Assembly (NCBI RefSeq): GCF_031085375.1 | Contig: NZ_JAVCWF010000001.1 | Coordinates: forward strand, 1 to 64,000 | DNA length: 64,000 nt | Reading direction: 5' to 3' | DNA from: Lactiplantibacillus brownii | GTDB taxonomy: Bacteria; Bacillota; Bacilli; Lactobacillales; Lactobacillaceae | Shown: positions 10,527 through 54,001 of the stretch, piece after piece | Layout: each line of letters begins with the position of its first letter | Position numbering within the stretch: the stretch's first letter is position 1 | The notes under the pieces: generated by a model | Told to the model about the DNA's origin: nothing | Databases searched by the model: none | The model's input: only the letters and a program-made list of their open reading frames with translations | Position numbers and translations under genes: made by a program

Positions 10527-11144
10527 ATGATTAACCGTTCAGTTCTTGTTGGCCGACTAACAAGAGATCCCGAATTACGATACACTTCTGGTGGTGCCGC
10601 GGTGGCATCGTTCACTTTGGCCGTTAACCGGAGTTTTACTAATCAAAATGGGGAACGTGAAGCTGATTTCATCAATTGCGTCATTTGGCGTAAGGCTGCT
10701 GAAAATTTTGCAAACTTCACCCATAAAGGGTCACTTGTTGGGATTGATGGCCGGATTCAAACCCGGAACTATGAAAACCAACAAGGGCAACGAGTTTATG
10801 TTACAGAAGTGGTCGTTGACAACTTCTCATTATTAGAATCACGCGCAGAATCTGAGCGTCATCAGACTGCAAATGGCGGTAACGGCAGTAGTAATAATGC
10901 TGGTTACAATAATAACAATGGGTACAATCGTCAAGACCAAAATGCAGCTCCTCAACAATCTTCATCGAATAACAATAACAATCCTTTTGGTAATGGTAAT
11001 CCGGCAAGTGCTGCGAGCTCAAATGCGCCAGCTGGTAATGGTAATAATGGTGCCCCAACGAGTGGGTCCAATAATAACCAAGCCGATCCATTTGCCAATA
11101 ATGGGGATCAAATTGATATTTCGGATGATGATTTACCATTCTAG
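10527..11144 (+). CDS. ssb: Single-stranded DNA-binding protein
   Basis: SSB coats single-stranded DNA at forks and recruits repair partners through its acidic tip. The N-terminal OB fold ([19 protein letters not shown], residues 1 to about 110) is followed by a long low-complexity linker rich in Asn, Gly, Ser and Gln, and then the conserved tip DISDDDLPF. At 205 residues it is the long, essential type expected next to rpsF and rpsR rather than a phage SSB. The repetitive codons of the linker create false open frames on other strands. Confidence 0.98.
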
Positions 11145-41408: not shown

Positions 41409-42275
41409 ATGAACTTTCGAAGAATTGAATGGATTTTCGTGACGGCCTTCGTGGTGCTCGATATCTTCTTGGTCTACATGTTTGTTCAGACCAGTTCAAG
41501 TGATACGAGCACTAAGTCATCAAGTGATACGGCAACGACGGTTATTCGTGAAATGCGGGATGACAATATTAGTTTCAGCGACCCGAGCAGTAAAGAGGGC
41601 ACCGGCTATTACATTGCTGGCAATAATGACAGTGGTTTGAAACAACATTTAGATCAGTTAACTGAACAGACGGCGCGATTATTGACGAGTAGTAAATTGA
41701 CCAGTACGTTGCATACCACGATGACCATTGATAAAGATCATCCACAAGTTGATCTCGATAGTTTCGTGAAACAATCGGCTAACGTGATCCATGGGGATGA
41801 ATACGTCTATTCTGCCGCTTTGTCGTCTACGGGCGACTATGTATACGTCCAAAAAGTGGCGGATGGTGAAATCCTGACGGCGACTGGTCAATTACATTTG
41901 ATGGTCAACAAGAATCGGCAATTAGTGAGTTACACGCAGTCTTACGTGAATAGCGTGAAAACATTGCGTGAAAAAGCGGTCACGATTAGTGAAAAGAAAG
42001 CTTTAGTGGCTTTGTACCAATATAATCAAGTTTCCAATAATTCCCGTATCGTGTGGGGCAAGTTGGGCTATTCACGGCTATTGAAGTTGAAAGATAGTAG
42101 CGTGTACGTGCCTACTTGGATTTTCGCGGTCAAAAGCAAGAACAGTGCCAATTACAGTGTGCACCGCATCAACGCCTTTACGGGCGCAGCGATGAAGAAC
42201 GGTAGCACGGAAACAACGACGGAAGCTGCGAGTGTGGAAAGTAGCACCGCTGGGATGATTTGGCATGCAGAATAA
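41409..42275 (+). CDS. yycI: Two-component system regulator YycI
   Basis: The 288-residue protein has one N-terminal membrane segment (WIFVTAFVVLDIFLVYMFV) and an extracellular domain with the YycI/PepSY-like pattern. It partners YycH and WalK in the membrane. It lies 12 bases after yycH with a GGGGGCGG ribosome binding site. A terminator and a family-B repeat follow, so walJ has its own start or depends on read-through. Confidence 0.88.
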   Translation: MNFRRIEWIFVTAFVVLDIFLVYMFVQTSSSDTSTKSSSDTATTVIREMRDDNISFSDPSSKEGTGYYIAGNNDSGLKQHLDQLTEQTARLLTSSKLTSTLHTTMTIDKDHPQVDLDSFVKQSANVIHGDEYVYSAALSSTGDYVYVQKVADGEILTATGQLHLMVNKNRQLVSYTQSYVNSVKTLREKAVTISEKKALVALYQYNQVSNNSRIVWGKLGYSRLLKLKDSSVYVPTWIFAVKSKNSANYSVHRINAFTGAAMKNGSTETTTEAASVESSTAGMIWHAE

Positions 42276-42286
42276 GATTGAGTTGA

Positions 42287-42320
42287 AGACGTCGGGAATT
42301 TTGGTTCCGGCGTTTTTTTT
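42287..42320 (+). terminator. Intrinsic terminator after yycI
   Basis: GACGTCGGGAA pairs imperfectly with TTCCGGCGT, followed by T8. It separates walRK-yycHI from walJ. Confidence 0.82.
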
Positions 42321-42334
42321 GATGGCAGTTGGTT

Positions 42335-42469
42335 CTAATATTTATAGTCGAAACGTGCAACTTGCGGCAACGACCTCCGCTTAGCTACGCCAATGACTAA
42401 CTCGGAACAACGCCGAGTGAGCCATTGGCTAGGCTATGCTCGGTAGTTGGGCGCCGCAAGTTGCACTCT
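42335..42469 (+). repeat. Family-B structured repeat, copy 1
   Basis: It begins CTAATATTTATAGTCGAAAC and carries a perfect 14-base outer stem GTGCAACTTGCGGC / GCCGCAAGTTGCAC. Inside are CCAATG/CATTGG, CTCGG/CCGAG and the conserved TAGGCTATGCTCGGTAG. It matches the copy at 59566-59697 in ends and core but not in stem sequence. Both copies lie directly behind a terminator. Confidence 0.75.
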
Positions 42470-42535
42470 AGCCCTAAAAGCGTGTATCATAACTAAGAGT
42501 AGTCACTGAATTCAGAGATGGGAAGAACCTAAATA

Positions 42536-43351
42536 ATGGTATTAAAATTAGCAACAGATCAAATGCAAGTTAGTGTGTTGGCTTCTGGGAGTACTGGGAA
42601 TGTCACTTATATCGAAACGCCAGAACATAAAGTGTTAGTCGACGCTGGTTTGAGTGGGAAAAAGATCGCCAATTTGATGAGTTCGATTGGCCGTGATATT
42701 AATGAAGTCGATAGTTTGTTTGTCACGCACGAACATACCGATCACTGTCATTCAGCGGGCATTTTGGCACGAAAATATGGCCTAGATGTGTACGCTAATC
42801 AGGGGACTTGGGACGCCATGGCGCACAAAATTGGTGAGGTTCCGACTGAGCTTAAACATGTCTTTGATCCCAATACCACCCTTGGTTTGGGAGACTTGGA
42901 TATCGAATCCTTCAGTGTTTCCCACGATGCTGCTGAGCCGCAATTTTATGAATTGCACCACGCCGGCAAATCCTTCGTCATTATCACCGATACGGGTTAC
43001 GTTTCTGAACACGTCGAAGGGGTCATTAGCGATGCCGATGGCTATTTATTTGAATGTAACCACGATTTAGAAATGTTGCGGATGGGCCGCTATCCTTGGC
43101 CACTAAAACAACGAATCCTCGGTGATGAGGGGCATTTATCAAATGAAGATAGTGCGAATGCATTAATGGATGTGATCGGTCAACGGACGAAGCGAATTTA
43201 CTTAGGTCATCGGAGTCAAGATAACAATATGAAGACTTTGGCGCATTTGACGGTTGCCTCGATGATGAAAGCACACGACTTCGGGGTAGAACACGATTTC
43301 CAAATCTATGATACGGATCCTGAAACGGCGACTAAACTAGTGACGCTCTAG
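42536..43351 (+). CDS. walJ: WalJ (YycJ) metallo-beta-lactamase-fold hydrolase
   Basis: The 271-residue protein has the MBL metal-binding motif HEHTDH and the YycJ-type start SVLASGSTGNVTYIETPEH. Members are exonuclease-like nucleases linked to replication and cell-wall homeostasis, and the gene is a normal part of the wal locus. The start at 42536 is kept because GGGAAG lies upstream; an internal ATG at 42563 (MQVSVLASGS) also matches homologues. Confidence 0.92.
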   Translation: MVLKLATDQMQVSVLASGSTGNVTYIETPEHKVLVDAGLSGKKIANLMSSIGRDINEVDSLFVTHEHTDHCHSAGILARKYGLDVYANQGTWDAMAHKIGEVPTELKHVFDPNTTLGLGDLDIESFSVSHDAAEPQFYELHHAGKSFVIITDTGYVSEHVEGVISDADGYLFECNHDLEMLRMGRYPWPLKQRILGDEGHLSNEDSANALMDVIGQRTKRIYLGHRSQDNNMKTLAHLTVASMMKAHDFGVEHDFQIYDTDPETATKLVTL

Positions 43352-43436
43352 TAACGATTTAACAGTTACACAATCATTCAGTCATAGAAAAATCACACTT
43401 TTTAGCTAAAATAAACTTAAAACTTAGTACTAAGTA

Positions 43437-43464
43437 GGGAGGGATCGCGTTTCGACGCGAAATT
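43437..43464 (+). promoter_or_regulatory. Hairpin between Shine-Dalgarno and start of htrA
   Basis: The strong GGGAGGG (43437-43443) lies 21 bases before the ATG, too far for efficient initiation. A perfect 6-bp stem with a TTCG tetraloop (TCGCGT TTCG ACGCGA, 43445-43460) fills the gap. Folding it brings the ribosome binding site within about five bases of the ATG. Confidence 0.7.
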
Positions 43465-44727
43465 ATGACAAACAACTCATTAGTCAAGGTCGCTGTAACT
43501 GCTCTCATTGCCGGCTTGTTAGGTGGCGGGATCGCTTACGGTGGCATCAATTATTTCAGCAATAATAATGTCACAACATCTTCGACCAGTGTTCCAACCG
43601 GGTCCAATAAATCGGGTTCAACGGGTACCACCAATGTGAAAGTTAATGTCAGTTCCCAAGCCACGAAAGTCTTTAAGAATAATAAAGCCGCCGTGGTCTC
43701 CGTAATCAACTTGCAGAAGCAAAGCACTTCGAGTGGTTGGAGTGGGATTTTGGGCGGTACGGATGGTTCGAATAGCGATAGTTCTAGCTCCAGCTCATCT
43801 AGCAGCAGTAAGTTGCAAGAGTACAGTGAAGGCTCTGGGCTGATTTACAAGAAGAGTGGTAATGTGGCTTACATCGTGACGAATAATCACGTGGTGAGCG
43901 GCTCAAACGCCATTCAAGTGATCATGAGTAATGGGACGAAGTTGTCAGCTAAATTGGTTGGGACCGATTCAGTGACCGACTTGGCCGTTTTGAAGATTAA
44001 TTCTGCCAAAGTGACGAAGACGGCTAGTTTCGGTAACTCCGATAATATCGAAGTTGGTGAAAATGCCTTAGCCATTGGGTCACCATTAGGTTCTAACTAT
44101 GCGACGACCTTAACGGAAGGGATTATTTCCGCGAAGAAACGGACGATCGCGACGACGAATACATCTGGTCAACAGACAGGGTATGCGACGGTTATTCAGA
44201 CGGATGCAGCGATTAACCCTGGGAACTCTGGTGGGCCGCTCTTCAATTTAGCGGGCCAAGTCATTGGGATCAACTCAATGAAGTTGTCTTCCGATAGCTC
44301 GGGAACGAGTGTCGAAGGCATGGGCTTCGCGATTCCAAGTAACGAAGTGGTTAAAATAATTAATGAGTTAGTTGAAAATGGTGAAGTTGTTCGGCCAGCG
44401 TTAGGGGTTGCGACATATAATTTGTCTAATATCTCGGCCAGTGATCGGAAGTCAGTCTTGAAGTTGCCAGCCAGCATGACTAAAGGGGTCGTTATCATGA
44501 AGACCTATGCGGGTTCACCGGCAAAAGCAGCTGGATTAACAAAATATGATGTCATTACGGAGTTAGGCGGTAAGAAGATTACCAGTCTAGCAACCTTACG
44601 GACGGCACTGTATGAGCATCAGGTCAATGATACGGTAACTGTGAAGTATTATCATAATGGGTCGTTAAAGACCGCAAATATGAAACTAACAGAAACGACT
44701 AAAACATTAACGAAGCAATCTAATTAA
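43465..44727 (+). CDS. htrA: Trypsin-like serine protease HtrA/DegP
   Basis: HtrA degrades misfolded proteins outside the membrane. The 420-residue protein has an N-terminal membrane anchor (about 7-29), a Ser-rich low-complexity linker (about 100-115), a protease domain with catalytic triad His142 (TNNHVV), Asp172 (DLAVL) and Ser255 (GNSGGP), and one C-terminal PDZ domain. Its place after walJ fits the conserved wal-htrA-rlmH order. The unusual hairpin before the start may affect its translation. A terminator follows. Confidence 0.96.
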   Translation: MTNNSLVKVAVTALIAGLLGGGIAYGGINYFSNNNVTTSSTSVPTGSNKSGSTGTTNVKVNVSSQATKVFKNNKAAVVSVINLQKQSTSSGWSGILGGTDGSNSDSSSSSSSSSSKLQEYSEGSGLIYKKSGNVAYIVTNNHVVSGSNAIQVIMSNGTKLSAKLVGTDSVTDLAVLKINSAKVTKTASFGNSDNIEVGENALAIGSPLGSNYATTLTEGIISAKKRTIATTNTSGQQTGYATVIQTDAAINPGNSGGPLFNLAGQVIGINSMKLSSDSSGTSVEGMGFAIPSNEVVKIINELVENGEVVRPALGVATYNLSNISASDRKSVLKLPASMTKGVVIMKTYAGSPAKAAGLTKYDVITELGGKKITSLATLRTALYEHQVNDTVTVKYYHNGSLKTANMKLTETTKTLTKQSN

Positions 44728-44752
44728 AGATTAAGCTTTCATAAGAGCGTCA

Positions 44753-44782
44753 AGATGCCGATCGCGTCTTGACGCTCTTTTT
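44753..44782 (+). terminator. Intrinsic terminator after htrA
   Basis: A perfect 13-base stem (AAGAGCGTCAAGA with TCTTGACGCTCTT) has a T5 tail. Confidence 0.92.
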
Positions 44783-44926
44783 AGGCTTAAATTGGAAAAA
44801 CCGAAGAAACGTTTTTCAAAACAGCCTGTTAGTGGCGTGTCATGGTCGTTGGTGCAAATAAAGCCGAACGAAATCAGAATTAGGCGTGAAAACCATTTTT
44901 ACCCGGGCAACGGGTTAGACATAAAT

Positions 44927-45240
44927 TGTGCATAACTTCGGGGATAACTTTTGAGTTTGGTTGTGGTAATTTATTAACAAGCGCCAGAACGGCAATGGGG
45001 CTTGTTCAAAAGTTATCCACAGGTGGTGCTTTTGGTTGTGGACTAAATTTTCAAAATTTATTTTAATTTGTTGTGATTGTTGATATAATGGGATTTGTAA
45101 CCGGCGTCTACGAACGAATGTTGCTGTGGAAAACTGTGGATAAGTTCCGGCTAACTTGACAAAACGACCCTAAATAAATGTTGTGGCAAACATACGTTCA
45201 ACACAATATATAGGAAACTGAGTTATACACCTGTGGATAA
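44927..45240. promoter_or_regulatory. Second DnaA-box cluster, between htrA and rlmH
   Basis: Perfect boxes: TTATCCACA at 45013-45021, TGTGGATAA at 45135-45143 and at 45232-45240. One-mismatch boxes: TGTGCATAA at 44927-44935 and TGTGGAAAA at 45125-45133. Further half-sites (TGTGGACTA, GTTGATAA) lie around them in AT-rich sequence. This is richer in perfect boxes than the visible oriC half. The stretch from 44783 to 45273 otherwise holds only the rlmH promoter, not clearly assignable, and no gene. Confidence 0.8.
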
Positions 45241-45273
45241 CTTTGTTGATAACTTGTGCAAAGGTGGTAAATT

Positions 45274-45753
45274 ATGAACATCAAAATTATCTGTGTTGGT
45301 AAATTAAAGGAAAAGTACTTCAAACAGGGGATTGCGGAATATGCGAAACGGATGAGTAAATTTGCAAAATTCCAGATTGTTGAAGTTCCTGATGAAAAGG
45401 CACCAGAGTCATTAAGTAACGCAGAGATGGCTAATGTCATGGAAAAAGAAGGCGATCGGATTTTAGATAAAATCAAGGATCGCGATTACGTGTATGCGTT
45501 GGCTATTCTAGGAAAGGAACGTTCTAGTGAAGAATTTGCTGCTGAAATAGATAAACTAACGACTTATGGACACAGTGATATTGATTTTGTCATCGGTGGC
45601 TCGTTAGGATTGGCTCCGGAAGTCTTAAAACGTGCGGATACGCAAATCTCATTCGGTCGCTTTACGCTGCCTCATCAATTGATGAGGTTGGTGCTGACGG
45701 AACAGGTGTATCGGGCGTTTATGATTAACATTGGGTCACCCTACCATAAGTGA
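45274..45753 (+). CDS. rlmH: 23S rRNA pseudouridine-1915 methyltransferase RlmH
   Basis: RlmH methylates N3 of pseudouridine 1915 in helix 69 of 23S rRNA. The 159-residue SPOUT protein shows [20 protein letters not shown], the knot region [14 protein letters not shown] and the universally conserved end IGSPYHK. The codons for Tyr-His-Lys-stop (TACCATAAGTGA) are the same bases that SCC elements use as attachment site in staphylococci (where the gene is called orfX), and related copies recur downstream here. Confidence 0.97.
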
Positions 45754-45950
45754 CGCTAAAAAAGCGTCTTATAGGCTTGGCGCTTGGGATGCATGAAGTC
45801 GTAAATTAGTTGGTAATTCGGCGTTTATAGCTACTTATATCGTTAGAGAAGTCCTTATCACAAGTGACGCTAAAATGGCGTCCCACAGGTTCAGTGTTTG
45901 AAATTCATGGAGTTGTAAATTGGTTGATATTTCGGTGTCTATAGCTAGTT
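45742..45950 (+). repeat. rlmH-end attachment-like sites A and B in tandem
   Basis: Site A (45742-45770) is the rlmH end, TACCATAAGTGACGCTAAAA, continuing to GCGTC. Site B (45848-45882) reads AGTCCTTATCACAAGTGACG, then CTAAAA and GCGTC. Similarity continues for about 85 bases after each (for example TTCATGGAGTTGTAAATT versus GCATGAAGTCGTAAATT), so the spacing of about 112 bases marks a tandem unit. Nothing else lies between rlmH and the HEPN gene. Confidence 0.75.
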
Positions 45951-46025
45951 GCGGTACCATAATCATAAATAAACAAATTAACATTAATAAAAAGAAGTTA
46001 GATGGTATTGGCGAGGAGAAATATG

Positions 46026-47474
46026 ATGGAAAGTAAAGAATCGTTAGATGTTATACAATTGAATATTCAGAGATTTATTGATTCGAAATTTACAGATCAA
46101 AAAGTTTTGGAAGTAGTGTTGCAGCAATATGGAAATCTTACTGAAGTTCAACAGGGGATGATTGAACCTAAAATGTATGTCATATATAGAGGAAAATATG
46201 ACTATCTTTTTACAGGTGGACAATATAATGATTCATGTGTGTGGATGAATAAAACAATTCAACATACTAGATTTGAAAGGGAATTATCTAATAATAAAGT
46301 ACATTTTTATATAGAAGCAGTAAAGATATTGTTAATGTTATTTCTAGAAAATGGTGATGAAACCAAATTAAAACGAGCAAGAAAGTACTTTCAATTTATT
46401 ACGGATCTTAATGAATATCCAGAGACGTCAGCTTTGAAGGATATCTATAGAGAAGATATTGAAATTTTAAAGGCGGTTAAAGATGGCCAAGGCTTGTGGA
46501 CGGAAACAAAATTTACTGTACCTATTGCAATTAAAAGTATTAGTAATGTTGTTCACGTAGAACTAGAGAAAGAAAACATTATAGCAGAGGTAACTTGTGA
46601 GTCCGGAATGGTTAATAATACGCCAATTCAGACAAATGGTGTATTGATACGCAATCAGGATCGGGAATCCCAGGTTGGCAATTCAACATGGAATATCAAG
46701 ATTAATAGGTATCTTTCGTGTGAGAAAGTGAGTCCAATTGATAAGACGGCATCTGTTATGCAAGAAAAGGTTTGCAAAATTGTTAACTTAGTAATTGACA
46801 GATATAGATTGAAGACTAATGAGTATTGGGTAAAAAAGATATATCCATCAATGGTAGATGGCCATTCGATTAATTACGGTGCAGATGATGTAATATTTCG
46901 AAAGATTTTAATGTATGACAGAGGAGAGTACATTCTGTCAACAGATTCAACATCAGTTGAAATTGGTGATATTAGTGAGGAAAAACCAATTGAATTATAC
47001 AAAAAAATGTTTTTAGGTGCGCAAACATATTTATTAACAGAAGATTTGCGCGAATGTGTTTTATTGTTAAATATTGCATTTGAAAATTTCACTTACAGTG
47101 TAGTTTGCCCCCAAATAGTTTCTTTGAGTGAGGGAAAATATGAAGCGAATTTTTACTTTGGTCTAAAACCATATCAGGACTTCTTTTTACGTGATTATTT
47201 AACGGAAGAGCAATATAAGACGGCTGTACAGCGGAAAGATATAAAGCCCTCGGGAACTTCCATGTATGCAATTTATAAAATCCTCTGGACTGAATCTAAA
47301 ACTTTTTCCGGAAATATTTCAAAAACAGAAATGAATAAACTAATTTCTACTATACGTCATAACCGAAACGAGTTTATACATGGCAGCTTATCAGATAGAA
47401 AGAGAATATCGGTTAATAATGTTAGGGGACAGTTAGATGCATTTGATAAACTAATGTCGTTAATTAGTTCTTGA
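46026..47474 (+). CDS. Uncharacterised protein with C-terminal HEPN-type RX4-6H motif
   Basis: I do not recognise the N-terminal part of this 482-residue protein. The C-terminal segment ISTIRHNRNEFIHGSLSD carries RX4H (Arg447, His452), the catalytic motif of HEPN ribonucleases, with an upstream amphipathic helix (LLNIAFENFTYSVV) as in large HEPN proteins of abortive-infection systems. Its codons are clearly more AT-rich than neighbouring core genes, a sign of acquisition. It stands alone between attachment-like sites B and C. GAGGAG gives best spacing to ATG 46026; ATG 46023 is also possible. An anti-phage or toxin-like RNase role is inference. No partner antitoxin gene is visible. Confidence 0.6.
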   Translation: MESKESLDVIQLNIQRFIDSKFTDQKVLEVVLQQYGNLTEVQQGMIEPKMYVIYRGKYDYLFTGGQYNDSCVWMNKTIQHTRFERELSNNKVHFYIEAVKILLMLFLENGDETKLKRARKYFQFITDLNEYPETSALKDIYREDIEILKAVKDGQGLWTETKFTVPIAIKSISNVVHVELEKENIIAEVTCESGMVNNTPIQTNGVLIRNQDRESQVGNSTWNIKINRYLSCEKVSPIDKTASVMQEKVCKIVNLVIDRYRLKTNEYWVKKIYPSMVDGHSINYGADDVIFRKILMYDRGEYILSTDSTSVEIGDISEEKPIELYKKMFLGAQTYLLTEDLRECVLLLNIAFENFTYSVVCPQIVSLSEGKYEANFYFGLKPYQDFFLRDYLTEEQYKTAVQRKDIKPSGTSMYAIYKILWTESKTFSGNISKTEMNKLISTIRHNRNEFIHGSLSDRKRISVNNVRGQLDAFDKLMSLISS

Positions 47475-47738
47475 TAGGTCTATTATTTATTACTTAGGGT
47501 TCATATCGACTTGTAGAGATAGACTATGCCGATATTATAAGTGCTGTGGTTTTAACCACTAAGTTATTAGTTACCCGATTGTAAACAGCGCCTAGGTATG
47601 ATATGGATCGCCGTATCATAAATGATGCGGTTTTTCCTAGGATTAATCGTTGCTAGGCATATATCGCAAGTGATATGTTGACGATATTCAATCTTGACGA
47701 TGTGTTTTTAAGGTATGATAGGGCTGGAGGTGTCTTTA
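47475..47738. repeat. Cluster of three rlmH-end-like attachment sites (C0, C, D)
   Basis: C0 (47526-47556) reads GCCGATATTATAAGTGCTGT, then GGTTTTAACC. C (47597-47638) reads CCGTATCATAAATGATGCGG, then TTTTTCC, very close to the staphylococcal SCC site as I remember it, and includes a 24-base imperfect dyad (47597-47620). D (47655-47683) reads GCATATATCGCAAGTGATAT. No gene lies in the region; the TetR ribosome binding site follows at its right end. Confidence 0.72.
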
Positions 47739-48278
47739 ATGGCCGATTTGCGTAAGTTTAAGAGTCAACGGGATATTCAAATGGGTTTGATCGCTTGCCT
47801 TAAGAATAAGCGATTCAACGAAGTCACTGTCAATGACATCTGTACGCAAGCATTGGTGGGACGTAGTACGTTTTACCATCACTATGCTGACAAGTATGCG
47901 TTGCTTGAAGAGATGGTGACACAGCGTGTAGACGTATTTGATCGGTTATTAGACCAACGAGTAGCGGGCATTACGGAAGATCAGCCATTGTTGGTATTGT
48001 ATCGACAACTCGAAGGCGATGCAGGGGCCATCACATGCTTACTACAGATACACGAAAAAGATGGCGATCTAAGTGATCGCTATCTTAATAGCCTTGCCCG
48101 TCATGCGCGGACTTTGTTTCCCAAGGTGACTTTAGCAATCCCTCAAGGCTTTGCGTTGGAATTATATTCAACCACTGCTTTGACTGCAATCAGCTGGGCG
48201 TTGCGTCATGGGGAACCTGAAGCCATTTCACATTTTATGAATCAGTTAATGAAATTGGTGCTTAATACGGAAGCGTGA
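47739..48278 (+). CDS. TetR-family transcriptional regulator
   Basis: The 179-residue protein begins with a TetR helix-turn-helix (VTVNDICTQALVGRSTFYHH, then YADKYALLEEM) and has a helical ligand-binding domain. The ATG at 47739 has GGAGGTG six bases upstream, so earlier in-frame starts are not used. It is convergent with the lactonase-type gene, the last 17 bases of the two coding regions overlapping. It probably regulates itself or genes in the same cassette; the ligand is unknown. Confidence 0.85.
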   Translation: MADLRKFKSQRDIQMGLIACLKNKRFNEVTVNDICTQALVGRSTFYHHYADKYALLEEMVTQRVDVFDRLLDQRVAGITEDQPLLVLYRQLEGDAGAITCLLQIHEKDGDLSDRYLNSLARHARTLFPKVTLAIPQGFALELYSTTALTAISWALRHGEPEAISHFMNQLMKLVLNTEA

Positions 48279-49089
48279 TCACATGTTGATCAGTATTGGT
48301 ATCGTGATTGGCAAGTGCTTCAATACAGTTTGGATCATGGGCCATCTCACGCACCCAACCAAGGCTAGTGATGGCAGCTTTACGACTGGTGCAGATGCCG
48401 GGTGTTAGCATCTCTTCCCATGAACGATTAGCGTAACCGACGTCTGCTGCGAGTAAGACGTAACGGCCATCGCAACCGCGGACCAACGTTGCTGACATGC
48501 CAGTCGCGTGACCTGCAGTATGAATTTGTAAGACACTGCCATCACCAAAGATATCATAACTTTCGCCTGTGGGACCAAAGCCGGTGTTTTGGTATTCGTA
48601 AGTTTGAACGTTGACACCGTGCCATTCACTGGGCAGATAGACCATTGGTGTGTGATTGGCAACGCGCCATTCAGGAGCGGATACTAGGATCTTCTTGGCA
48701 TTGGCGACGTGCTTGAGGCCACTGACGTGATCGCAGTGTAAGTGGCTTAACAACACATAGTCGAGGTCCTCAGGACGATGTCCTAAGGCCTTCATGCGCT
48801 CATCGACTGCCCAGCCAGTCGGGAGATAGCCCGTATTGATCTGAACCTGCAAACCTAGTTCTTTCCAGTTGCTGGTGCGGATTTGTTTGTTCCAGCCGGT
48901 ATCAATCAAAATTAGGCCCCGGGGGTGTTCAATCAAGTAACTAGAAACTGGTAATGTGGTTTGATTCTTCTCTGAACGAAATAAACCAGTAAAGGCCAAG
49001 GGATTACGGTATAGACCGTGAAACGGCAAAGCCTTGTCGACCTTAACGAGCCCGGTGTGTAAAACGTGAATTTTTATTTGATCAGTCAT
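48262..49089 (-). CDS. AiiA-like metallo-beta-lactamase-fold lactonase
   Basis: The 275-residue protein shows the two-zinc motif SHLHCDHVSG (HxHxDH), a second His in HTAGHATGMSATL, the bridging Asp in LAADVGYANRSW and a late His in ALANHDTNTDQ. This pattern matches N-acyl-homoserine lactone lactonases and related lactonases. Gram-positive bacteria do not make these signals, so it may degrade signals of neighbours or another lactone. The ATG at 49089 follows GGAGG by 11 bases. It shares a cassette between attachment-like sites with the convergent TetR gene. Confidence 0.8.
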   Translation of the reverse strand: MTDQIKIHVLHTGLVKVDKALPFHGLYRNPLAFTGLFRSEKNQTTLPVSSYLIEHPRGLILIDTGWNKQIRTSNWKELGLQVQINTGYLPTGWAVDERMKALGHRPEDLDYVLLSHLHCDHVSGLKHVANAKKILVSAPEWRVANHTPMVYLPSEWHGVNVQTYEYQNTGFGPTGESYDIFGDGSVLQIHTAGHATGMSATLVRGCDGRYVLLAADVGYANRSWEEMLTPGICTSRKAAITSLGWVREMAHDPNCIEALANHDTNTDQHVITLPY

Positions 49090-49304
49090 GATGTGATGTG
49101 CCTCCAATTCGTATGTCTTTAGCATACGGGGAAGACAAGTGTATGGGTAGAATCACTTTGACGGCAGGTGTGTCAAAAGGGACAATCATACCAGTAAGTG
49201 TCTCGTAAGGCACAAAATTAGATATATTGATTGAGGCATTTCCACAGTGTGTGTCTGCTGTTTAGGAATAATGAATTCATCATTTACCATAGAAACGATT
49301 GATA

Positions 49305-49340
49305 TGGAAGTCCTTACCACAAGTGATGCGATTAAACCTC
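49305..49340 (+). repeat. rlmH-end-like attachment site E
   Basis: GAAGTCCTTACCACAAGTGA followed by TGCGATTAAACC shares its left 20 bases with site B at 45.85 kb (one difference) and keeps the ACAAGTGATGCG core. A partial second copy (TCAAGTGATATA) follows directly. Confidence 0.7.
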
Positions 49341-49504
49341 AAGTGATATATTGGGTTAAAGGGGGTCTGCGTATTTTTTAAATCCTAGTGGGTAATTGCT
49401 GACATATTAGGACCATTCGCGTCAGACTGCAGACGTTTCTACTCCTTACGAAATGAATGTGACCTGTTTATTCCTTAGAACGATGGAATTGAGTTCATTG
49501 TATA

Positions 49505-49531
49505 AAAAATGAGCTAGTAGTTAAACTAGCC
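49505..49531 (-). terminator. Terminator-like hairpin on the minus strand
   Basis: On the minus strand GGGCTAGTTTAACTACTAGC forms a short stem and is followed by TCATTTTTT. It lies about 25 bases after the small peptide frame at 49555-49638. Confidence 0.5.
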
Positions 49532-49554
49532 CAGATCCATTAGCTATGAGTGAT

Positions 49555-49638
49555 TTACAAATTACCCCTGCACCGGATTAAGCATCCTGCTGGCAAGTAA
49601 ACCAGAGACACAGCTAAGATGGAGAGTAAAATATGCAT
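49555..49638 (-). CDS. Possible 27-residue hydrophobic peptide
   Basis: The frame reads MHILLSILAVSLVYLPAGCL followed by IRCRGNL: a single membrane helix with a basic end. AGAGG lies eight bases before the ATG and a hairpin with T-run follows the stop. Small membrane peptides of this shape include type I toxins, but I cannot match it to a known family. Chance is possible at this length. Confidence 0.3.
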   Translation of the reverse strand: MHILLSILAVSLVYLPAGCLIRCRGNL

Positions 49639-49720
49639 ATCCATTACCTCTTTCAAGGAATCGTAGAGACAACTTAAGAATAGAGATTGGAGCGCGGTGC
49701 TTAGAGCCGGTAATATCAGA

Positions 49721-49770
49721 TAGCAGGAGTGGGAATCGAACCCACGAGCTCTAAGGCTGTATGCATAGTT
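49721..49770 (-). pseudogene. tRNA-like 3' fragment
   Basis: On the minus strand the sequence has a perfect T-arm (GTGGG TTCGATT CCCAC) followed by TCCTGCT and A, as in the 3' half of a tRNA. No matching acceptor 5' strand, D-arm or anticodon arm can be found upstream, so it is not a functional tRNA. Such fragments are often left where an element used a tRNA end as integration site. Confidence 0.6.
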
Positions 49771-49829
49771 TACTTTTGAGAATCAGTATACCATACTTAA
49801 ATCAATTGATTGAAATAATTTCAGATTAG

Positions 49830-49925
49830 TATGATACGGATCTCCGTATCATAAGTGACGCTAAAAAAGCATTTCATATACTGGCTCTTGGAATTCATGG
49901 CGTTGAATTATTTACTGCAAATTGC
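49830..49925 (+). repeat. rlmH-end-like attachment site F with perfect dyad
   Basis: A perfect 11-base inverted repeat with a 2-base centre (TATGATACGGA TC TCCGTATCATA, 49830-49853) runs into CATAAGTGACGCTAAAAAAG. The next roughly 60 bases resemble the flanks after sites A and B (TTGGAATTCATGGCGTTGAA). Its left half matches site C. It marks the right edge of the island. Confidence 0.75.
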
Positions 49926-49997
49926 AATCATAATGCGAATTGAATGACGAGGAGATAGATGCTTTTGAGTAGTTGGTTAAAAGTGTACGTAAGTCGT

Positions 49998-51359
49998 CTA
50001 ATCAGTAGTGTTACTTGGTTTGAGCATTAACGCAATCACAAATCGAATGAAGCCAATTATGATAATGCTGGCAAAAAAGGCTCGGGCTCCGGTAAATTGA
50101 GACGTTGTGCTAAAGAAAGCCTGAATGACGACTAATAGGCTGGTTCCAATTGAGCCACCAACTTGTCGGAAAGTGTTGACCATCGCAGTACCATGTTTTA
50201 ATAATGCTGCTGGTAAGACGTTTAGCGCTTCTGTTGTTAAAGGGGTCATCACTAAAGAATTGCCGATCATTTTTAGAATCAAGCAAAAAGTCATCAAGAG
50301 TAATGAAGTATGCGCTGTTAGAAATAGGAATGGTATCATTGAGATGGCTACGGTGAGACTACCGATGATTCCTAGTATTTTACCGCCAACATGATCATAT
50401 AATTTCCCCGCAACCAGCGAAGTTAAGCCACTAGCGAGGGCTCCTGGTAATAAAACGAGCGCTGACGTCAGGGCAGTGTGGTGCATGGCCGATTGTACTA
50501 AAGTTGGAATAATGGCTTGTGGTCCAATCAAGGTAACGAACGATAAAACGACTAGGATTAGTGATAAAGTGAATTGGCGATTTTTAAAAATGTGAAAATC
50601 TAGCATCGGCTTAGTCAGCTTCATTTGACGATAAATGAAGCTGGCAATAACGATTAGGCCGCTGACAATCGCGATGAGCCCAAGCTGTTTATTTTGGCCG
50701 AGGCTACCCGTACCGTAAAGTAATAAGCCAAATCCGACTGTTGAATAAGTGACTGAGCGATAGTCAAGTTTATTGTCAGGACTAGGATGACCAACGTTTT
50801 GCATGCCAAAAATTGTGGCAATGATCAAGCCAACGCCAATAGGGAAAACTAACCAAAACAGAAAACGCCAGGACAGCTTGCTAATGATGAAACCGGCGAT
50901 AGTCGGACCGATCAAAGGGGCAAAGCCAGTTGTTAGGCCAATTATTCCCATAACGGTGCCATGCTGGTCTTTTCTGACGATTGTAAACATCACCACTTGC
51001 ATTAATGGGATGATAATTCCAGCGCCGATCGCTTGGATGAGTCGAGAAATCAGTAGCATACTGAAATTAACGGCTATTGCCGATAGTAAGGTGCCCAGTG
51101 TAAAAGTACCAACTGCAAATAGGGTGAGTTGGCGTGTCGTAAAGCGACTAATCAAAAATGCGGTGACCGGGATCCACACACCATTTACAAGCATGTAGGC
51201 AGTTGTCAGCCATTGAACAGTATTATTGCTGACGCCAAAAGTGGCCATAATGTCAGGAAATGCAGTGAAGAGCAAGGTCTGATTGAGAATCGAAATGAAT
51301 GCGCCTAGCATAAATATGATAAGAATGGTTTTGATGTGATAGCTTTTAGTGTCAGCCAT
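49998..51359 (-). CDS. MFS multidrug transporter, DHA2 (EmrB/QacA) type
   Basis: The 453-residue protein has 12-14 predicted membrane segments and DHA2-type motifs (NQTLLFTAFPDIMATFGVSNNTVQWLTTAYML cut to its core: TVQWLTTAYMLVNGVWIPVT; loop ISRFTTRQL; GAGIIIPLMQVV). It exports unidentified drugs or toxic compounds with proton antiport. It is divergent from a MarR-family gene across a 126-base spacer holding a perfect operator-like palindrome, the usual layout of a repressor and its efflux pump. GAGGAGG precedes the ATG. Confidence 0.85.
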   Translation of the reverse strand: MADTKSYHIKTILIIFMLGAFISILNQTLLFTAFPDIMATFGVSNNTVQWLTTAYMLVNGVWIPVTAFLISRFTTRQLTLFAVGTFTLGTLLSAIAVNFSMLLISRLIQAIGAGIIIPLMQVVMFTIVRKDQHGTVMGIIGLTTGFAPLIGPTIAGFIISKLSWRFLFWLVFPIGVGLIIATIFGMQNVGHPSPDNKLDYRSVTYSTVGFGLLLYGTGSLGQNKQLGLIAIVSGLIVIASFIYRQMKLTKPMLDFHIFKNRQFTLSLILVVLSFVTLIGPQAIIPTLVQSAMHHTALTSALVLLPGALASGLTSLVAGKLYDHVGGKILGIIGSLTVAISMIPFLFLTAHTSLLLMTFCLILKMIGNSLVMTPLTTEALNVLPAALLKHGTAMVNTFRQVGGSIGTSLLVVIQAFFSTTSQFTGARAFFASIIIIGFIRFVIALMLKPSNTTD

Positions 51360-51381
51360 GATGGACCTCCTCGGAGAATTT

Positions 51382-51407
51382 GTTTAAGTTGTAGTTACAA
51401 CTTAAAC
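51382..51407. promoter_or_regulatory. Operator-like perfect palindrome between MFS and marR
   Basis: GTTTAAGTTGTA GT TACAACTTAAAC has two 12-base arms with a 2-base centre, 23 bases before the MFS start and about 80 before marR. It is the size and symmetry of a MarR dimer site. Confidence 0.82.
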
Positions 51408-51485
51408 AACAAAAATGCTACACCACTTAATTTTATAAGTCAATCAAACTATATTTTAATTACAATATGAAGGTGAGATGGTCAG

Positions 51486-51911
51486 ATGTCCTTGCAACAT
51501 CCAGTAACAACGGCAGAACTAATTTATCAAGTTGGTCAATTAGAGGGCCAGATTATTCAACGTCGGTTGGCGGATATTGGGATTCGAATGGATCACGCCC
51601 GACTCCTGCATTATGTGAGTGATGTCGCTGGAACTAATCAAGCTAATTTAGCTGAATATTTAAATGTGCAGCCGGCCACGCTAACTAATATGATCAAAAA
51701 ATTGGAGAAGCAGAATTTAATTATTCGACGCGTTAATCCAATTAACTCACACATGAAGCAGATCTTTTTGCTGCCAGAAGGCGAAAAAGCAGCGCATAAG
51801 ATCAACGAGGTTTTCAACCAATTGAATCGTATTGTTGCGTCTGTGCAGCTAACGGATGTCGCACAATTTCAGCAGTTATTGGCACGATTAGAAGCTAAAT
51901 ATAAGGACTAA
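51486..51911 (+). CDS. MarR-family transcriptional regulator
   Basis: The 141-residue protein has a winged helix-turn-helix (NQANLAEYLNVQPATLTNMI, then KKLEKQNLIIRRVNPINSH) flanked by dimerisation helices, the MarR layout and length. It probably represses the divergent MFS pump and itself through the palindrome at 51382-51407. The ATG follows AAGGTGAGATGG. The inducing compound is unknown. Confidence 0.88.
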   Translation: MSLQHPVTTAELIYQVGQLEGQIIQRRLADIGIRMDHARLLHYVSDVAGTNQANLAEYLNVQPATLTNMIKKLEKQNLIIRRVNPINSHMKQIFLLPEGEKAAHKINEVFNQLNRIVASVQLTDVAQFQQLLARLEAKYKD

Positions 51912-51998
51912 TAGTGGGCTTGAAAGTTTGATTGCGCCCTATTACAATAGGATCGAACGTACCAAATTGAATTTTGAAAAGTGAAAGAACGTGAAAAT

Positions 51999-52541
51999 AT
52001 GCCAGAAAATGCAGCCATGGAAATATTAATTCGGTTAAAAAATGTTGCACCCGCAGTCTCACGAAAGCTGATCGTGCCTGTGACGATCCGTTATGACCAG
52101 TTACATGTGCTGATTCAGCTCGCGTTTGGCTGGACTAATTCTCATTTATATAAATTCGAATTACCGCAACAACCGGATCTTGAATATGTTGGCTATGTGG
52201 ATGATATGAGTCTCGTAGCTGAACAGATTCCAGCGGATCAAGCGTATCTGTTCCCTGATTTACAACAAACTAAGCTGATTTATACTTATGATTTTGGTGA
52301 AAGCTGGGAACATGAGATTATTTTGAAGCGGATGCTAACTTTCGATGAAATTAAGCACGTTCAAGTGCCAAGTTGTACCTGGAGTCGGGGCGCTAATTGT
52401 GCCGAAGATGGGCAGGATCCTAAATATGCCTTGCCATTTAATCGGCAAGACTTGAATAGTCGTTTGAAACTGTGGTCACGTGCGGGCGAGCAACTTATTC
52501 GTGCAGACGATATGGGATTGAATCCTGAAAGTGATTACTAA
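51999..52541 (+). CDS. Plasmid pRiA4b Orf3-like / IS1096 passenger TnpR-like protein
   Basis: The 180-residue protein matches a small family named after a plasmid ORF: LKNVAPAVSRKLIVPVTIRY, HVLIQLAFGWTNSHLYKFEL, and the hallmark YTYDFGESWEHEIILKRML. Despite the IS-derived name there is no recombinase motif, and the biochemical function is unknown. An in-frame GTG at 51981 is an alternative start; neither has a strong ribosome binding site. The family is often found in accessory regions. Confidence 0.8.
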   Translation: MPENAAMEILIRLKNVAPAVSRKLIVPVTIRYDQLHVLIQLAFGWTNSHLYKFELPQQPDLEYVGYVDDMSLVAEQIPADQAYLFPDLQQTKLIYTYDFGESWEHEIILKRMLTFDEIKHVQVPSCTWSRGANCAEDGQDPKYALPFNRQDLNSRLKLWSRAGEQLIRADDMGLNPESDY

Positions 52542-52576
52542 TCGCGCAAATTATTTTTACTTGCGGTATATTATAA

Positions 52577-52726
52577 TTATGTTCCCCAGCTATGGGGGTG
52601 ATCCAATGATTAGGAAGGTAAAGCCTGATTTTTAATAGTATTCCCCACGGATGTAGGGCTGATTTTAATGATACCTTGGTGTTGGGAGTCGACAAGTCGT
52701 ACTTCTCACGTGTGAGGGCATATAAA
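52577..52726 (+). CRISPR. Degenerate type I-E-like CRISPR array (three repeats, two spacers)
   Basis: Three 28-base units start at 52577, 52638 and 52699, an exact 61-base period leaving two 33-base spacers (52605-52637 and 52666-52698). Unit 1 ends GGGGGTGATCC, unit 2 starts GTATTCCCCACG and unit 3 reads GTACTTCTCACGTGTGAGGG. Each keeps different parts of the lactobacillus type I-E repeat (GTATTCCCC ... GGGGTGATCC, recalled from memory). No cas gene is in the window. The repeats have drifted too far for a working array. Confidence 0.68.
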
Positions 52727-52780
52727 AAAGCTGATTTTGTCAAAAGGTTGTGCCATGACCTGACAAAATCAGCTTTTTTT
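52724..52780. terminator. Strong bidirectional terminator after the CRISPR remnant
   Basis: AAAAAAGCTGATTTTGTCA pairs perfectly with TGACAAAATCAGCTTTTTT across an 18-base loop. Confidence 0.9.
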
Positions 52781-52988
52781 AATGATTTTAGCGTATCTTT
52801 GGACGACTTATTTTCAAAATTAAGTCTTACTGAGTGAATAAACTGCGGCGGATTCCAAGCAATAGCAATTTGATTTCAGTGATGGCGAAACTTGTTTTAG
52901 GCTCGTATTCACATTTAAATTCCTAATCTATTCACGAAGCTCAAAAACAGTCAAAAAAACAATCACGGCCAAATTCTATCTACAATTA

Positions 52989-53044
52989 GAAAATCAACCA
53001 AGTGTTTTATCGTCTAACGACTCAAGGTACTTGGTTGATTTTTG
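52989..53044. terminator. Orphan terminator-like hairpin
   Basis: AAATCAACCAAGT pairs with ACTTGGTTGATTT (25-base loop), with T-run on one side and A-rich sequence on the other. No gene ends here, so it may close a lost gene or an unseen RNA. Confidence 0.65.
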
Positions 53045-53201
53045 TGCATATATTTGGCCGTAAAATAATATTCAAGAGTTGCGGCTTATTGATTCAATGA
53101 AGTGTGGGGCACTGATCGTAATGATTCAATCAAAAATCAAGTATCCACGTTGAAACCTAGAACCGCTTTTTTGGTGATTGCTCAATACATGAAAGTATGT
53201 C

Positions 53202-53248
53202 AAAGAGCGTCCAATGGCGTTGTTACCGCACAATTGGACGCTCTTTAG
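53202..53248 (-). terminator. Terminator of the FusB-like gene
   Basis: AAAGAGCGTCCAAT pairs with ATTGGACGCTCTTT 11 bases after the gene's stop codon on the minus strand. Confidence 0.85.
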
Positions 53249-53258
53249 TTACTATTTT

Positions 53259-53918
53259 TTATTTCCGATTTCGACGTTGTGGCTGTACCACAGTCAAAAA
53301 TTCGGTTAAAGTCTCTAGATTAGTCAGTTGTCGATTACATTGGTTGCTATCACGGCAAATATAGTTGCCTTTCTTGGTATAAGTTCCCAAGCCAGATGAT
53401 TTAGTCGTTGAGAGAAACAAGGCGACATTACCGATTGTTTGGCAAATGGCACAGACCCCCTTAATGGTTTGCGGGGAGAATTCACCTTGAATGCCGATTA
53501 AACGGTCTTCAAAGGGTGCCACGAGATATTTCTTTTGGTTACCACCGTCATTCCATCCCAAATAAGTTAATTCATGTAACTGTAAATTGGCCCATTCTGG
53601 CTGCTTCAACTTTTTAACTTTTCGAAAAATCTTGCTCAGTTGTTTAGTTGAGAGTGTTGGAAAAGGTTCTACCAATGGGACTAATAATTCAAGCAATTTT
53701 GTAGCAGCCGTTCGTGAGAGTCGGTCAGTTGCTAAGCCGGTTAAAAATTGTTGCGCATCTAGACTTTCACTAGGAAGCAATGGTGTTATCTGAGCAATCG
53801 TCTTGGCCCGTATGGCGAGTCGAATTTGAGCATCATTGACCGCTAGATAGGCACTAGTCAAATTGTTAACTTGTTGGGTGATATAACTATATTCATAGGT
53901 GGTAATTGTCGTTTTCAT
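53259..53918 (-). CDS. FusB/FusC-family EF-G-binding protein
   Basis: The 219-residue protein has a helical N-terminal domain and a C-terminal treble-clef zinc domain (CAICQTIGNVALF ... YICRDSNQCNRQL, four Cys), the layout of FusB-type proteins, which bind EF-G and free ribosomes stalled by fusidic acid. Older databases may call it fibronectin-binding. The ATG at 53918 follows GAAAGGAAA. A leader peptide and alternative hairpins precede it, pointing to induction by a translation-blocking agent. Whether it gives fusidic acid resistance here is inference. Confidence 0.82.
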   Translation of the reverse strand: MKTTITTYEYSYITQQVNNLTSAYLAVNDAQIRLAIRAKTIAQITPLLPSESLDAQQFLTGLATDRLSRTAATKLLELLVPLVEPFPTLSTKQLSKIFRKVKKLKQPEWANLQLHELTYLGWNDGGNQKKYLVAPFEDRLIGIQGEFSPQTIKGVCAICQTIGNVALFLSTTKSSGLGTYTKKGNYICRDSNQCNRQLTNLETLTEFLTVVQPQRRNRK

Positions 53919-53928
53919 AAATAAATTT

Positions 53929-54001
53929 CCTTTCAGATTCAAACTAGACACTTCTCTGAAAGGTTTTGCAGAAAAGTGTCGCTAACAAGCAGCACTCTTC
54001 T
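53929..54001 (-). promoter_or_regulatory. Four-segment translational attenuator of the FusB-like gene
   Basis: On the minus-strand transcript: segment 1 AGAAGAGTG (54001-53993) pairs with segment 2 CACTTTTCT (53978-53970). Segment 2, as GACACTTTTCT, can instead pair with segment 3 AGAGAAGTGTC (53957-53947). CCTTTCAGA (53963-53955), in the loop between 2 and 3, is perfectly complementary to TCTGAAAGG (53937-53929), which contains the gene's ribosome binding site. With 1:2 formed the site is buried; with 2:3 formed it is free. Confidence 0.75.

Follow-up and report, generated by a model that had tools for sequence, protein, structure and literature searches.

What has been inserted, and by what, in the DNA behind the rlmH gene of Lactiplantibacillus brownii? 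The question is raised by the first 64,000 nucleotides of contig NZ_JAVCWF010000001.1 (assembly GCF_031085375.1), here called the window. There rlmH (45274..45753, plus strand; PF02590, E 1.4e-57), which encodes the SPOUT methyltransferase RlmH, is followed by 4.1 kb in which the end of the gene recurs and small sets of genes lie between the copies. Staphylococcal cassette chromosome (SCC) elements insert at the 3' end of rlmH, are flanked by direct repeats, have a dyad at their ends, carry one or more ccr genes, excise as circles and re-integrate. The 4.1 kb is very probably a composite, ccr-less array of SCC-like cassettes that would have been moved in trans by Ccr recombinases. Since the array has no ccr, it is an SCC-like remnant or passenger array and not an SCC element in the strict sense.

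Repeated rlmH ends and the occupied locus

The rlmH end recurs far above chance. At up to two mismatches, the pattern CCNTAYCAYAARTRAYGC has 6 matches in the 64-kb window against 0.24 expected; five of them are perfect and on the plus strand (45739, 45853, 47611, 49312, and 49844), and the sixth, at 10678 on the minus strand, has two mismatches. The copies are thus better than random AT-rich sequence, which the initial annotation had named as the alternative, and a family-wide site scan (below) agrees. Site 1 is the attachment-like 3' end of rlmH (45733..45756), with the central dinucleotide TC at 45736-45737 in the Ser codon TCA. It is paired with a site of opposite type, attachment-like site 2 (45846..45870; AG at 45850-45851), across a 114-bp spacer unit (45751..45864) similar to DNA adjoining rlmH in loci L032 and L036, and a 98-nt repeat starting in the last rlmH codons (45739) returns at 45853 with 76% identity. 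Site 3 (47597..47628; TC at 47608-47609) is a dyad attachment-like site at the distal end of cassette 1, site 4 (49297..49329; AG at 49309-49310) is attachment-like, and site 5 (49830..49861; TC at 49841-49842), again a dyad attachment-like site, is the distal end of the array. The four strong downstream sites, all on the plus strand, share the orientation of rlmH, making five with the rlmH end, and three of the four keep the left half TGATAYGG.

A gapped scan with the half-site consensus was judged against 60 single-base shuffles of the island, the highest of which scored 24. It adds a decayed attachment-like site (47529..47553, plus strand) with a score of 31. The sites at 45739 and 45853 score just 24, equal to the shuffle maximum, so that their support is the CCNTAYCAYAARTRAYGC pattern test. 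A site proposed near 47665 scored 18, within chance, and was rejected. The initial annotation had listed seven sites, the rlmH end and six others; five strong ones and the decayed one stand, and that near 47665 is withdrawn.

The array therefore has several marks of SCC: insertion at the rlmH 3' end, flanking direct repeats of the insertion site (sites 1, 3, and 5), and a dyad or inverted repeat at the element ends (47597-47620 and 49830-49853), a feature also borne out by the dyad statistics of 46 distal sites. No ccr gene occurs among the open reading frames of 42000-54000. The large-serine-recombinase domain PF07508 is absent from this genome, other recombinase families not having been searched genome-wide, in line with the initial statement that no recombinase gene is left in the window.

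The comparison with relatives used 95 Lactobacillaceae rlmH loci, chosen and not random, one per species genome, 21 from the same genus and 74 from others. Of the latter, 19 belong to a set of 22 genomes selected because they have several sites, and 3 were selected for their recombinases; the remainder were taken from among the matches listed of a picking pattern that admitted only AC, AG, TC, or TG at the rlmH dinucleotide. The same limit applied to both sites of the multi-site genomes, agreement between the two not being forced. L113 (a near-duplicate of L112), L059 (superseded by L089), and L056, L068, and L069 (without rlmH) were left out. Empty versions of the locus, proposed at the outset as a check, do exist. 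In L024 and L036 the rlmH end is joined directly to DNA found past the distal site in L032 and L030 (identity of the empty and occupied flanks 86% across 255 nt and 88% across 253 nt), and the L024 flank also matches the DNA beyond the distal site of the L. huananensis ccrAB element (L052; 81% over 258 nt). The genus genomes compared differ in DNA and gene content after rlmH. Just beyond the distal site or rlmH in L024, L030, L031, L032, L036, L052, and L063, from the same genus and Levilactobacillus-type genomes, lie two divergent genes with a conserved flank (proteins of about 153 and 239 aa, read from their translations as MerR-type and SDR).

The array might also be a frozen fossil of ancient insertions, without present mobility, a reading compatible with the preferred one as to origin. 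The lack of a PF07508 recombinase in this genome and the decayed site at 47529 favor it; the differing DNA after rlmH in the genus and the preserved left halves speak against it, though one genome per species gives no measure of timing. A wholly fossil state is a minority possibility.

Site anatomy and dinucleotide classes

Across the 95 loci, 1.2 Mb downstream of rlmH holds 46 extra copies of CCNTAYCAYAARTRR on the rlmH strand and 0 on the other, and 173 kb upstream of rlmH holds none on either strand. The initial annotation had suggested a search for the site as direct repeats; sites of this type bound other cassettes and complete ccrA/ccrB/cch elements at rlmH in related genera. An extra site is present in 29/95 loci (6/21 in the same genus), a figure that is not a prevalence because picked genomes are in the sample. 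The bases to the left of CCNTAYCAYAARTRR, outside the pattern, are TGWTACGG-like in distal copies and complete a dyad, TGATACGG-n-DD-n-CCGTATCA, around the central dinucleotide DD. On average, the 46 distal copies agree with the dyad at 6.2 of 9 positions and the 95 rlmH ends, whose left half is coding, at 2.8 of 9. This distal anatomy would be expected of a left half contributed by a mobile element and a right half inherited from the former rlmH end. Judged by their sequence, the repeats have the character of attachment-type sites as expected of large serine recombinases.

The same repeats might be leftovers of ordinary duplication or homologous exchange at rlmH, with turnover by transformation and homologous recombination. 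Most genomes lack a PF07508 recombinase (37/397 in the family have one), and the 98- to 114-nt repeat units could support homologous exchange. Against this reading stand the distal copies, which depart from rlmH coding sequence left of DD and complete a dyad there, the strict strand bias, and the complete ccrAB elements bounded by the same sites, and it is held to be improbable.

New here are the identity of the dinucleotide, its matching between ends, and the opposite type of close strong sites. In 93/95 loci RlmH ends in G-S-P-Y-H-K, and its Ser codon opens with DD, either TC or AG; in the remaining two an Arg codon stands at this place and AG is preserved. The dinucleotide is that of the genome's own rlmH in 21/25 isolated distal sites, where permutation of the rlmH classes among genomes gives a mean of 11.5 (p 4e-5, a value that treats related species as independent, though they are kin). 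Outside Lactobacillaceae, 3 of 10 loci include rlmH (Heyndrickxia, Lysinibacillus, and a Lachnospiraceae bacterium), and these have GA at rlmH and at all 6 distal sites. Strong sites less than 130 bp apart form 16 pairs, and 16/16 are of opposite type; most of their spacers are variants of one unit of ~55-62 bp, so that by eye perhaps five independent cases are represented. Decayed copies stand outside both counts. The far site of L. senioris (L056), in which DD agrees, is not among the 25, and an opposite-type pair in L069 is not among the 16.

Strand exchange by serine integrases requires central dinucleotides that match and point the same way. A like pair could lose the intervening DNA by deletion and an unlike pair could not; unlike pairs may be retained for use or may simply persist. 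The requirement for like orientation is stated for serine integrases in an earlier account (PMC3783163). Apart from the serine codon, TCG in L030 and AGT in L036, the rlmH genes of these two loci are 95% identical; because TCN and AGY are at least two changes apart, some process may exchange the end of rlmH.

Complete ccrAB relatives and the proposed mechanism

Genes of the expected mobility apparatus are found at the same position in related genera. A CcrA/CcrB-sized pair lies downstream of rlmH in seven Lactobacillaceae genomes: Liquorilactobacillus capillatus (G162), L. aquaticus (G184), L. uvarum (G237), Levilactobacillus brevis CD0817 (G245), L. huananensis (G260), Latilactobacillus graminis (G159), and Lentilactobacillus senioris (G172). 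A far-end repeat is present in 6/7, all but G184, which has all three genes (ccrA, ccrB, and cch) and a contig that ends before the far site. The CcrB-like proteins of G162, G260, G245, and G159 score 278-536 bits against NCBIfam SCCmet_CcrB, and their CcrA-like partners 153-172 against SCCmet_CcrA, the best-matching model in each case; the pair call in G184, G237, and G172 rests on PF07508, size, and CcrB identity to that of G162 (85, 94, and 51%, respectively). Six of these genomes have a Cch-type helicase (DUF927 and Cch HTH) upstream of the pair (L050, L052, L053, L056, L057, and L054), G237 being outside this result; in L. graminis it is split into two adjacent frames (L054). The L050 protein scores 289 bits against NCBIfam SCCmet_Cch1 (cut-off 700), and DUF1643 is present in L053. 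Between rlmH-end repeats, ccrA, ccrB, and cch occur together in G162, G260, G245, G159, and G172, and in G265 a recombinase fragment stands alone between two sites. The initial proposal that versions with ccr and cch should be sought was well placed, the genes being found in related genera and mostly between such repeats.

Where compared, the CcrB-like proteins of Lactobacillaceae share about 36-46% identity with staphylococcal CcrB. A CcrB recorded under Lactiplantibacillus plantarum (P0039) is 37% identical to an S. aureus CcrB, and a quick tree places it with Liquorilactobacillus and L. senioris, so that it does not look like staphylococcal contamination. P0066, a staphylococcal-type CcrB under the name Listeria monocytogenes, falls beside S. 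aureus within the Staphylococcus clade. Scans of viral contigs did not find the elements: the A1 scan gave two remote relatives (24-31% identity) and the P0039 and DNA-pattern scans none; among the matches listed (six), P0039 is ~30% identical to phage records. Island DNA matches only two plasmid records, both Listeria, at rlmH.

The distal part of the window array is itself related to these elements. Positions 49356..49861, ending at site 5, are a remnant of the far end of a ccrAB-bearing element. The final 374 nt (49489-49861) are 86.6% identical to L. brevis CD0817 and 88.0% to L. huananensis at the ccrAB element end, with its distal TC site, and 49356-49493 matches further parts of the same end. 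Close, near full-length matches to this terminus are found in 6/397 genomes, that of the window included.

Another integrase, a phage large serine or a tyrosine enzyme merely sharing the rlmH target, is a very improbable source of the cassettes: three genus genomes do have large serine integrases, in phage-like or other islands, and tyrosine integrases were outside the scope of the recombinase search, but those three lie on contigs other than that of rlmH, with no exact site nearby and lower CcrA/CcrB scores, and across the family the scored large serine recombinases that lie between rlmH-end repeats are CcrA/B-like. The four other-island recombinases of the genus score best but weakly against CcrB (113-199 bits; CcrA 79-120). 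By reading of translations, one setting is a phage-like contig and two are beside competence-type genes; at up to two mismatches there are no sites in L046+L047 or L049, and two with 2 mismatches in L048. These enzymes were considered as the source and rejected. The phage-like contig (L047; G005:C95) carries two adjacent large serine recombinases of 553 and 525 aa.

For the array of SCC-like cassettes, the following mechanism is proposed. CcrA/CcrB-type large serine recombinases, supplied now or formerly by a full element, would recombine the rlmH 3' end with a circular cassette at its attP-like junction, exchanging strands at the central dinucleotide. The cassette would then supply new last codons of rlmH, leaving the protein unchanged, and the old end would be pushed outward as the distal repeat. 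Repeated rounds would build the array, and later decay and ccr loss would leave passengers immobile unless a helper enters. The dinucleotide, TC or AG, would have to agree between partners, giving two compatibility classes. Ccr proteins would thus act in trans on the sites of the window, in successive insertions. The initial annotation had likewise invoked repeated insertion at rlmH by Ccr-like or other recombinases, and the above-chance sites, the empty versions, and the ccr/cch versions in related genera support its Ccr-like form.

Several observations weigh against this reading. With one genome per species, the comparison is between species and no strain-level gain or excision is seen, and related genomes are not independent. 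A PF07508 recombinase is on the rlmH contig in 0/21 genus genomes (the G004 and G005 contigs end within 0.4 kb of rlmH). The eight scored Ccr-like proteins and the Cch-like one are below NCBIfam equivalog cut-offs, and P0039 is known as a protein record. The dinucleotide disagrees in 4/25 distal sites, namely 49323 in the window (AG), L030 (AC), L035 (TC, with AG at rlmH), and L096 (CG), and in L036 a decayed site that lies 114 nt past rlmH seems to be of the same type (AG/AG), contrary to the opposite-type rule.

A bolder extension is an integron-like cassette system at rlmH throughout Lactobacillaceae, in which one Ccr pair, borne by occasional helper elements, would shuttle many small ccr-less, often defense, cassettes in trans, and two mutually non-reacting tandem docking sites would be told apart only by the TC or AG set by the RlmH serine codon. 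It is offered tentatively, with the balance of probability tilted against it.

Cargo and relation to known systems

The window cassettes measure 1.9 and 2.2 kb, and a third segment between sites has no recognized gene. Cassette 1 carries a HEPN-like protein with an R-x4-H motif (46023..47474, plus strand; PF18731, E 0.0012, below the Pfam cut-off). The motif is invariant in 7/7 HEPN-like sequences, the window's own included, and a HEPN gene 44% identical to that of the window directly follows rlmH in L027. Cassette 2 carries a TetR-family regulator (47715..48278, plus strand; PF00440, E 2.3e-7) and a metallo-beta-lactamase-fold hydrolase (48262..49125, minus strand; PF00753, E 1.1e-15), a pair that recurs downstream of rlmH in L022 and in L104 (another genus, ~3 kb from rlmH). 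These three proteins stand from the initial cargo list; its "tRNA fragment" is a T-arm-like stretch at which ARAGORN calls no tRNA.

That stretch belongs to a candidate structured RNA on the minus strand of the terminal remnant (49500..49800), with a promoter-like start, the T-arm-like segment, and a terminator-like hairpin, all by eye. The strand folds better than 100/100 shuffles (z -4.0), and covariation is thin (compensatory change in 4/104 predicted pairs of a 6-sequence alignment). Its appearance is that of a permuted tRNA-like RNA, in which a segment resembling a T-arm plus acceptor 3' strand could pair with a later AGCAGGA stretch, a pairing that the changes in L052 keep by eye and that the computed consensus fold does not use. 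Rfam gives no match at E up to 1 in 44000-52000. Origin of the T-arm-like stretch as a copy of a host tRNA 3' end was rejected, its 23-base pattern having no other match in the genome at up to two mismatches; the segment is common to element ends of other species.

Among 20 chosen island proteins, PADLOC matched nine and left 11 without a match, and no model matched the HEPN protein of the window. A Gabija pair in L089 (GajA, E 2.4e-180; GajB, E 1.3e-87) lies between AG sites; in this locus (G110) the two genes fill ~3.2 kb of a 5.4-kb ccr-less cassette downstream of rlmH that AG sites bound. The other matches, some partial or generic, are PD-T4-6-type kinases (L066), PDC-S06 and pAgo-like (L063), DdmD and an IrrE-type peptidase (L032), a DEDDh exonuclease (L030), and PDC-M68B (L050).

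The SCC family, known for the spread of methicillin resistance, is hereby extended to lactobacilli as a route of gene exchange, and food bacteria appear to have genes reshuffled by the same machinery, with cargo that includes the Gabija defense pair in one relative. In the TC/AG classes and the opposite-type tandem sites, nature provides a case in which orthogonality of attachment sites through the central dinucleotide can be tested directly, and the site gives annotators a guide to the hypervariable DNA after rlmH. Earlier descriptions of SCC-like elements come from Staphylococcus, Enterococcus, and other Bacillota. Among the matches listed by title or abstract start, with subscription journals and preprints mostly outside, none described them in lactobacilli, which is weak evidence of absence.

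Like SCC, including its ccr-less pseudo-SCC composites, the array combines insertion at the rlmH 3' end, direct repeats with TATCATAA, and tandem composites, and the complete lactobacillus relatives add ccrA/ccrB/cch modules. It differs in lacking ccr, in cassettes of 1.9 and 2.2 kb, in tandem sites of opposite type, and in the dinucleotide TC or AG in place of GA, expected in staphylococci from the Glu codon of RlmH at that position.

In enterococci, ccrAB genes have been known since 2010 (PMC3068701). The Enterococcus cassette chromosome (ECC), in the available text, is a ccrAB-type element at rlmH with ~50-bp att sites, a TATCATAA core, an inverted repeat, and multiple attR sites, averaging 42 kb with ccrABEnt (PMC6222049). 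The array resembles ECC, as there described, in the rlmH insertion, the TATCATAA core, the inverted repeat, and the multiple sites. It differs in genus, in its ~2-kb cassettes, and in having no ccrABEnt-type recombinase, this genome lacking PF07508; the available ECC text gives no dinucleotide classes (PMC6222049).

Islands with large serine recombinases inserted at rlmH are also described in other Bacillota, where ends were found by the last ~12 bp of rlmH and tandem composites occur (PMC10061031, in part). They were studied for PolA-SSB primases, and "Lactobac" is absent from the main text. As far as that account goes, they and the window array are alike in lying downstream of rlmH, in ends matched to the rlmH end, and in tandem composites.

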